Source: Myxococcus sp. (GTDB lineage: Bacteria > Myxococcota > Myxococcia > Myxococcales > Myxococcaceae). From it: a stretch of 46,117 nucleotides of DNA. The position numbers were made by a program, and so were the translations under genes. Location: assembly GCA_014879945.1 (NCBI GenBank), contig JACSRE010000111.1:1-46117 (forward strand). Direction: 5' to 3'. The notes under the pieces were generated by a model. It ran no database searches. It worked only from the letters and a program-made list of their open reading frames with translations, and had not been told where the DNA came from. Numbering within the stretch: position 1 is the first letter of the stretch; each line of letters begins with the position of its first letter. This document shows positions 34,441-35,543 of this stretch, piece by piece.

Positions 34441-35172
34441 TCAGCCCGGCAATCGGAACGACGCGAGCTGCCAGCCCTTCTGCTCGGCGGCGCGCTGGTC
34501 TTCGGGCGTCGGGAGCCCGCCGATCACCGCGACGCCCTTCGGCGCCACCGGCACCCAGTCGAGCAGGCTCGACAGTCGCCCCGGCCTGCAGGTGACGACC
34601 TCGGGCCCCAGGCGGTGCACCGCCTCGTCGGTGAGGCCCACGTGAAACTCGACGCCAGCGGTGAGCCCCAGCCAGAGGGTGGCGACGCCGGCGGGCTCCC
34701 ACCACGGCGCCTCGGAGCACATGCGCGCGCCCACGCGCGGCGAGGGCAGGTCACTCCCGCTGAGCCCCTCGAGCGTGTCGTGCGACCAGGTCACCCCGTC
34801 TGCGAAGGTGAGCGCCGCGGGGCCGGCGACCCTTTGGGGGCGCTCCTTCGAGACGCTCAAGGCCCCCAGCGCGTCGAGGTGCGCGCGCGCCTCCGCCCGG
34901 GCCGGCGCGCCCGGCGCGTTCGGGCAGAACACCACGCCCCGCATCAGGCAGCCCACCAGCGCCTGCGCCCAGCGAATGCCAGGCGCGTGGGAGCAGCTCA
35001 GGCGGTCTCCTGGCGCGACGCCGGCGGTGGCCAGCATCGACGCGAAGCGCTCGGCGCCGCTCCACAACGTCATGGCCGGCGCGACGTGGTCAGCGGCGCC
35101 GGCGAAGTGCTCCACCAGCGACGGCGCCACCCCGCGAGGCCACGCTTCGTGGAAGCGGTCGAGCGGGCTCAT
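34441..35172 (-). CDS. Truncated ANL-like (AMP-binding) protein, probable non-enzyme
   Basis: 243 residues from ATG 35172, which overlaps the previous gene by ATGA. Residues ~28-80 ([50 protein letters not shown]) follow the N-terminal A1-A2 pattern of acyl-CoA synthetases/adenylation domains. Residues ~165-240 ([59 protein letters not shown]) recall the A4-A5 core. The nucleotide-binding TSGTTGxPK loop, the YGxTE motif and the whole C-terminal lid domain are absent; family members are usually 500 residues or more. Adenylation activity is therefore unlikely. It may be a scaffold or a decayed enzyme. Similarity is judged by eye. Confidence 0.65.
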
Positions 35173-35543
35173 GCAGCGGCCTTCACGACCCTGCCCGGCG
35201 ACGGCGCGTGGCCCACCAGCGGGGCCACCTGGTCGATGAGGTGCCCGAGGAACGAGCGTCGGCACACCAGCTCTTCGTCGATGGTGCCCCCGGCCAGCCA
35301 ACCCGCGGCGACCCCGGCGTGCACCGCGCGGAACTCGTGGCGAACGCCCTCGAGGCCGCTGCGAAACCCGGCGAGGCCTCCGGAGGCGGCGCTGATCAGC
35401 CGCTCGGTGATGGCGCTGCTCCAGGCCTCGAACGCCCGGCGCTGCGAGTCCGACAGCTCGGCGTGAACCGCCAGGCGCGCCACCAGCGGCGACAGGCGGT
35501 CGAGCGAGAGTGCGTCCGTGAGGCGTTCGGTCTCACCAGCCAT
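35169..35543 (-). CDS. Hypothetical helical protein coupled to the ANL-like gene
   Basis: 124 residues from ATG 35543, with a strong AGGAGA about eight bases upstream. The composition is helical and mildly amphipathic (ERLTDALSLDRLSPLVARLAVHAELSDSQRRAFEAWSSAITERLI), followed by FLGHLIDQVAPLVG and a basic tail (GRVVKAAA). There is no signal peptide, membrane span or recognised domain. The stop overlaps the next start by ATGA, so it and the ANL-like protein are probably made together and may interact. Function unknown. Confidence 0.7.
   Translation of the reverse strand: MAGETERLTDALSLDRLSPLVARLAVHAELSDSQRRAFEAWSSAITERLISAASGGLAGFRSGLEGVRHEFRAVHAGVAAGWLAGGTIDEELVCRRSFLGHLIDQVAPLVGHAPSPGRVVKAAA

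Follow-up and report, generated by a model that had tools for sequence, protein, structure and literature searches.

An ANL-derived protein lacking the catalytic motifs is encoded in overlap with a small, predicted helical protein in Myxococcus

Analysis of a 46,117-nucleotide stretch of Myxococcus DNA (henceforth the window) identified two overlapping minus-strand genes that form a discrete two-gene unit, the first encoding a 124-residue protein, P2, predicted to be helical, and the second a 243-residue protein, P1, which is very probably a maintained, non-catalytic, ANL-derived protein. The reading of this pair that we prefer, with a probability of roughly 0.55, makes P2 a helical regulator whose transcription is conditional and which is labile to proteases, with P1 as its co-translated, catalytically dead partner. 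The features on which the argument draws are the following.

35169..35543, minus strand: P2, the 124-residue helical protein encoded by the first gene of the pair (open reading frame, AlphaFold2 model and family)
34441..35172, minus strand: P1, the 243-residue ANL-derived protein without catalytic motifs (profile, fold and motif comparisons)
35169..35172, minus strand: ATGA overlap, combining the start of P1 and the stop of P2 (ATGA in three of four orthologue pairs, GTGA in one)
35552..35556, minus strand: Shine-Dalgarno AGGAG of P2 (from the sequence; GGAG in 5/5 orthologues)
35598..35613, minus strand: sigma54-type promoter-like site TGGATCT-N4-TTGCA (GG-N10-GC) upstream of P2 (5/5 close orthologues)
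35172..35204, minus strand: P2 residues 114-124, a disordered tail (pLDDT < 50) with a K-A-A-A end, candidate ClpXP C-degron
35038..35172, minus strand: P1 residues 1-45, the most constrained part (pN/pS 0.20 in both 30-codon windows)
34867..35076, minus strand: P1 residues 33-102, adenylation-domain homology (hhalign E 9e-6; 3kxw E 1.1e-4)
34768..34902, minus strand: P1 residues ~91-135, a poorly constrained linker (pN/pS 0.88-0.97) with no P-loop pattern
34453..34722, minus strand: P1 residues ~151-240, a second constrained segment (pN/pS 0.43-0.71), ANL-like in the model only
34380..34417, minus strand: conserved promoter-like block of atpA (GAAAAACACCTGACA...CCATGGTACGG), outside the pair (6/6 congeners with atpA)

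Sequence profile comparisons relate P1 to adenylation domains through its N-terminal part. The AMP-binding family PF00501 matched residues 36-93 with an E-value of 3.1e-6 (26.7 bits, under the curated cut-off of 29.9), and an hhalign comparison of a four-sequence P1 profile with 8 myxobacterial adenylation domains aligned residues 33-102 over 69 columns (E 9e-6, probability 83%), a global alignment of P1 with such domains being uninformative (E 0.014). Matches in the PDB were led by 3kxw (E 1.1e-4, profile positions 39-93), a fatty acid AMP ligase by title. These profile matches indicate homology between residues 33-102 of P1 and the N-terminal portion of ANL adenylation domains; beyond residue ~102 hhalign gave no sequence match to adenylation domains. 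Searches with the structure model of P1, which has a mean pLDDT of 55.7, also recovered ANL folds. Foldseek returned 66 chains at E <= 0.001 (best E 2.1e-5), and the 50 of the 66 that were listed are all ANL enzymes or adenylation-domain synthetases by title, as are 50 of the 50 matches listed by VIA, the best of which has a Z of 8.6 over 84 residues at an rmsd of 2.5, a modest value. Some of the VIA alignments reach residue 240 (e.g. 8ra0 with Z 7.9, 144 residues and rmsd 4.9), and outside residues ~33-102 P1 appears ANL-like only in this low-confidence model. The initial annotation of this DNA had described an N-terminal and a later, core-like adenylation stretch in P1; the former is upheld by sequence comparison over residues 33-102, and the latter half depends on the model with a pLDDT of 55.7.

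The P-loop (A3) pattern and the A5 YGxTE pattern were each found in 0/4 P1 orthologues versus 8/8 longer controls, and the A8 hinge pattern in 0/4 versus 5/8. An A7-like [TS]GD occurs twice, in the G095 orthologue only, with A7 being present in seven of the eight controls. The C-terminal lid is missing from all four orthologues, the P1 of the window stopping at residue 243. The A10 pattern was found in 0/8 controls as well as 0/4 orthologues, and its absence from P1 is uninformative because the pattern missed every control; that the A10 lysine is absent follows only from the missing lid. Given that the P-loop and A5 are absent from 4/4 orthologues and present in 8/8 controls, it is very unlikely that P1 carries out a conventional adenylation reaction, and the earlier remark that P1 has neither P-loop nor lid proved to hold across its orthologues. 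It is conceivable that P1 is nevertheless alive, as a minimal acyl- or nucleotide-binding or enzymatic domain whose missing half is supplied by P2 or another protein. The small C-terminal domain of ANL enzymes is separable, which makes split versions conceivable, and P2 overlaps P1; however, P2 is modelled as all-helical and belongs to no Pfam family at E <= 1, and the P-loop and A5, which in ANL enzymes are located in the large domain, are missing in all four P1 proteins. We regard such a split enzyme as very improbable and retain the reading of P1 as catalytically dead.

Matches to P1 at E <= 0.001 were found in 43 of 96 genomes of the family. Orthologues occur in four of these, all among the seven genomes of the same genus and all with an intact reading frame, and the remaining 39 have partial matches only (E 2.7e-6 or weaker), mostly within long open frames. 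Across the class a P1 profile search at E <= 1e-8 recovered 4/147 genomes, and a 51-aa query for the N-terminal segment recovered 6/142, comprising the four orthologues and two marginal matches (E 0.006 and 0.008). A search for a full-length donor of P1 in the 96 family genomes gave as its best non-orthologous match one of 38% over 61 residues (E 2.7e-6). The P1 orthologues are 54-67% identical to the P1 of the window, while atpA reaches 94-96% in these genomes.

This high divergence, along with the loss of about half of the ANL enzyme and the absence of P1 from the congeners G090 and G091, would suit the idea, raised in the initial annotation as a decaying ligase, that P1 is what is left of a once full-length ligase gene, still open by chance. 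The pattern of substitution argues against this. By the Nei-Gojobori method (NG86) the whole-gene dN/dS of P1 is 0.26-0.56 (6 pairs, the G095 sequence being compared minus its first codon), that of P2 0.295-0.49 (10 pairs), that of the neighboring HDOD gene 0.18-0.52 (6 pairs) and that of atpA 0.06-0.21 (15 pairs), the ratios for P1 and P2 being rough because dS is high (0.66-1.10). In sliding windows of 30 codons, pN/pS along P1 shows residues 1-45 to be strongly constrained and residues ~151-210 moderately so (0.43-0.51), with a rise to 0.68-0.71 at the end, while pS is fairly even (0.41-0.58). Uneven pN/pS combined with even pS implies that selection acts on the beginning of P1 and on a segment further along and has largely released the middle; the released residues ~91-135 may correspond roughly to the expected place of the P-loop. 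Differences per codon position amount to 0.32/0.23/0.47, and gap lengths are divisible by three also where the alignment was not codon-forced; together with a frame open in four species, this places the P1 reading frame beyond chance. P1 is under purifying selection and probably not decaying, and its selection pattern is that expected of a maintained non-enzyme, unlike that of a relic. With the overlap with P2 also kept in 4/4, we consider decay quite improbable. The pseudoenzyme that had been proposed as the other option is supported by the ANL fold matches, the missing motifs and the purifying selection; among close relatives, where absence and relaxed selection had been named as counting against it, P1 is indeed absent from two congeners with atpA, but selection on it is purifying, with only the middle near neutral.

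On the minus strand the gene order is P2, P1 and atpA, with the pair upstream of atpA, and in 4/4 cases the P1 gene follows P2 with a start-stop overlap and precedes atpA. The ATGA coupling at 35169-35172 of the 243-residue to the 124-residue reading frame and the strong Shine-Dalgarno sequence of the latter, both of which had been noticed earlier, are confirmed, AGGAGA lying ~8 nt 5' of the P2 ATG with GGAG in the same place in 5/5 close orthologues. The coordinates of P2 in G095, which the gene caller had made short, and those of P1 in G095, G092 and G094 were set by hand. Protein searches of the source genome gave one match each for P1 and P2. A weak extra match of the P2 profile in this genome (G000 contig 47, E 0.001) lies antisense in a gene that we take to be gyrase-B-like and was taken as chance; a P2 match in G080 (E 9e-4) was also left out as chance.

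Close P2 orthologues are present in 5/7 genomes of the genus, the source genome included. In G090, P2 occurs without P1; a gene of glycoside-hydrolase family 3 comes after it, and atpA is on another contig. In G091 neither gene lies beside atpA, which is directly preceded by a gene of 139 aa, and neither P1 nor P2 was matched in that genome at E <= 0.001. Searches for remnants with tblastn gave chance-level matches only, for P1 and P2 in G091 (202-nt gap) and for P1 beside the atpA and P2 of G090 (best E 0.006, antisense, in a stretch that holds another gene). G093, which is incomplete, has no atpA match and only a divergent member of the P2 family, and was left out of the atpA-based counts. 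P1 is hence accessory, being absent from two congeners that have the atpA locus, G090 and G091. Two losses are the simplest reading of this absence, short of proof because the branching order of the genus is only partly resolved (in the atpA DNA tree one inner node has a support of 0.355, and the tree of concatenated proteins has no root). Conversely, P2 is independent of P1, since it occurs without it in G090 and in its wider family; the pair that had been called conserved is so in that P2 overlaps P1 in 4/4, but not in the sense that P2 requires P1 beside it.

Such a distribution offers some ground for the alternative that only P2 is functional and P1 is a recent near free-rider, the translation of which merely tunes or protects the end of the P2 mRNA: the P2 family is more broadly distributed than P1, and G090 has kept P2 with its KAAA end without P1. 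However, residues 1-45 of P1, at a pN/pS of 0.20, are tighter than P2 as a whole (0.42-0.62), which argues for a protein-level function of P1, and we find a free-riding P1 distinctly unlikely compared with a maintained partner of P2.

P2 is a member of an unnamed family for which modelling predicts a helical bundle. Its AlphaFold2 model has a pLDDT of 86.8 and five helices; no Pfam family was matched at E <= 1, NCBIfam gave one weak match (MobA, E 0.015), Foldseek gave none at E <= 0.001, and the VIA matches (top Z 9.8, rmsd 3.5, 102 residues) resemble common helical arrangements, among the matches listed. Profile searches within Myxococcota yielded an alignment, A8, of 14 members from 12 genomes with 22-69% identity to P2 and six invariant columns only, two of them the final Ala-Ala. 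The A8 profile matched 13/195 Myxococcota genomes, the thirteenth being G008, whose member (E 2.3e-8) was not used in building A8; a search of a small set of proteins gave a second G008 member beside it at E 3e-4. These two divergent proteins, at L145:1489-1794 and L145:2725-3048 (-), end in ACA and RLAA and adjoin a gene that by eye resembles a histidine kinase. Near the P2 paralogues of G009 a protein combining FHA and sigma54-activator domains is encoded (L115:3846-5111, minus strand); G010, G011 and G012 have comparable genes (L117-L119), the domains having been checked in G009 only. A defence or phage origin of P2 or P1 was tried and rejected: neither protein matched PADLOC at E <= 1, and the PHROG matches were weak (E 0.08 and 0.3).

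All 14 members of A8 end in Ala-Ala; of the weaker G008 members, one (the E 2.3e-8 match) ends in CA and one in LAA. Among 319 called genes 20 have Ala-Ala ends, namely 13 of the P2 family, five HDOD orthologues and two others, giving a background outside the P2 and HDOD families of 2/301 genes, in which identical C-termini were counted once; the sets of 319 genes here and 306 below are from related loci and not independent. P2 thus ends in Ala-Ala, like ClpXP C-degron proteins, and its tail is exposed in so far as it is disordered in the model. The start region of P1 shares the last codons of P2, and where P1 follows the overlap could itself conserve the tail; yet Ala-Ala is kept in the wider P2 family and in G090, where the tail is KAAA despite there being no P1. 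Within the ssrA degron, Ala-Ala is described as the element that matters most to ClpXP (PMC7652416), and for sigma-AntA it is reported from 67/71 orthologues and as necessary for degradation by ClpXP, the family-wide Ala-Ala having predicted this control and experiment having confirmed it (PMC7142297). By analogy, we lean, by a little, towards the P2 tail being a degron. An open-access literature search on ClpXP and degrons in Myxococcus gave only titles on Caulobacter and Pseudomonas.

A short leading gene whose product has a degron-like tail, an overlap and a patchy presence might also describe a toxin-antitoxin-like module, with P2 as a labile antitoxin and P1 as the toxin. Against this, most genomes having the P2 family have it without P1, PADLOC holds no match for either protein at E <= 1, and ANL fragments are not known to act as toxins. 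We rate such a module as highly improbable and continue to prefer the reading of P2 as a labile regulator accompanied by P1.

Upstream of P2, a TGGAYC-N5-TTGCA element with GG-N10-GC spacing is present in 5/5 close orthologues, 64-78 nt before the ATG. For M. xanthus, two reports give the sigma54 consensus as TGGCACG-N4-TTGC(T/A) (PMC9765219, PMC7910581). The -24 box of P2 is a partial match, with TGGATC for the consensus TGGCAC, and the GG, GC, spacing and TTGCA fit in 5/5. A strict TGG-N8-TTGC occurs <=250 nt upstream of 9/319 called genes, all of which are orthologues of P2 (4) or HDOD (5), and a fifth P2 orthologue, missed by the gene caller and thus outside the set of 319, has it too. A looser sigma54 score (>= 9) is reached by 13/14 P2-family members versus 48/306 other genes, HDOD orthologues included; the strict upstream form is absent from P2 relatives outside the genus. 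There is no genome-wide enrichment of exact TGG-N8-TTGCA, as the genome has 22 sites and the reversed control 206. The source genome does carry a sigma54 gene. Scans of 34200-36300 for consensus sigma70-type promoters and terminators found none; the conserved blocks upstream of P2 and atpA were recognised by alignment.

The block upstream of atpA, CTGACA-N15-TGGTAC with its flanks, is located after P1 and is kept in 6/6 congeners with atpA, two of them without P1 there; its CTGACA is recognisable in G053, and the sigma70-type consensus scan missed it. Its conservation suggests that atpA may be separately controlled, and separate conserved elements upstream of P2 and atpA would most simply make the pair and atpA two transcription units. 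The position of the pair before atpA, which had been singled out as unusual, is real but probably not meaningful, because the atpA block persists without P1; atpA is probably a bystander and its link to the pair a coincidence.

The opposite view would be that the pair acts on the ATP synthase as an inhibitor or assembly factor, in which case P2 could be a diverged AtpH. An atpH-like gene does take a P2-like place in 9/18 atpA loci of other genera, and at least six of those nine AtpH proteins appear in the P2 profile scan (E 0.11-2). However, in 6/7 genomes of the genus atpH is matched on a separate contig, hhalign of the P2 family against AtpH gives a probability of 4.4% (E 0.009, 15 columns), the atpA upstream block persists in congeners without the pair, and 8/8 P2 paralogues outside the locus lie on contigs other than that of atpA, where atpA was found. 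An origin of P2 from AtpH was accordingly rejected, the genome having a separate atpH, and a role of the pair in the ATP synthase is a slim prospect beside that of a regulator with its dead partner. As to atpH itself, in the genus it lies on a different contig from atpA (window 34343-34453), with a match elsewhere in 6/7 genomes, the source included; in the nine loci of other genera (L084-L090, L092, L093) the atpH-like gene is upstream of atpA with one gene between.

Several other genes adjoin this locus. An HDOD-domain gene follows atpA (window 31410-32585, minus strand); it has an Ala-Ala C-terminus in 5/5 orthologues and a sigma54-type site at 32640-32655, TGGCCG-N5-TTGCT, again in 5/5, and is missing at the atpA locus of G091, which also is without P1 and P2. 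The 139-aa gene (window 35692-36111, minus strand) has no Pfam match at E <= 0.01 and lies upstream of P2 or atpA in 6/6 genomes examined. In the window it is adjoined by genes that by eye resemble a histidine kinase and a sigma54-activating response regulator (36222-39205, plus strand); in the loci of G095 and G092 no such genes were seen next to it. A 976-aa open frame antisense to atpA (window 31491-34421, plus strand) was skipped by the codon-based caller and taken as a high-G+C artefact.

Under the reading preferred here, some signal of starvation or stress would switch on P2 through a sigma54-dependent promoter, and ClpXP would keep the level of P2 down via the exposed Ala-Ala tail. P1 would be made by the same ribosomes as P2 through the start-stop overlap and, being catalytically dead, would dock on P2, with the constrained residues 1-45 as the probable contact; docked P1 might then modulate the lifetime or the target binding of P2. 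That P1 and P2 bind each other is fairly probable. The full sequence of steps, down to an influence of P1 on P2, is tentative, and we would not expect every step of it to hold. More doubtful still is the version in which the relatives of P2 make up a hitherto undescribed family of helical regulators that are under sigma54 control and have a built-in, ssrA-like degron, and P1 is a pseudo-adenylation stability switch that shields or presents this degron.

If the preferred reading is true, P1 would represent a catalytic ANL domain that was reduced to its N-terminal part and retained as a binding protein, and P2 would add a family recognisable by a natural Ala-Ala C-degron. It would further predict that the P2 family and the neighboring HDOD protein form one sigma54-controlled, ClpXP-cleared set in Myxococcota. 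No report of ANL or acyl-CoA-synthetase pseudoenzymes, or of truncated adenylation domains, was found in the open-access literature searched.

These proteins can be compared with several known systems. With ANL adenylation domains, such as those of NRPS and the fatty acyl-AMP ligase 3kxw/3lnv that is nearest in the PDB by sequence, P1 aligns over residues 33-102, and residues 15-240 of its model superpose on their N-terminal part; these domains are however ~500 aa in length versus 243 aa in P1, which is without P-loop, A5 and lid, and the N-terminal segment of P1, unlike ANL enzymes, is found almost only in the four orthologues. MbtH-like proteins are small partners of adenylation domains, and P2 is likewise small and has its gene next to that of an ANL-type protein; but P2, at 124 aa, is modelled as all-helical and lies beside a dead fragment rather than an active enzyme, and neither Pfam nor NCBIfam gave it an MbtH match at E <= 1. 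The site upstream of P2 shares the GG-N10-GC spacing and the TTGCA/T box with Myxococcus xanthus sigma54 promoters (PMC9765219, PMC7910581), from which it departs in its -24 box (TGGCAC in the consensus). Finally, P2 is a predicted helical bundle of another family than sigma-AntA, and is only a candidate for such degradation, but it is like sigma-AntA (PMC7142297) in having a terminal Ala-Ala conserved across its family.
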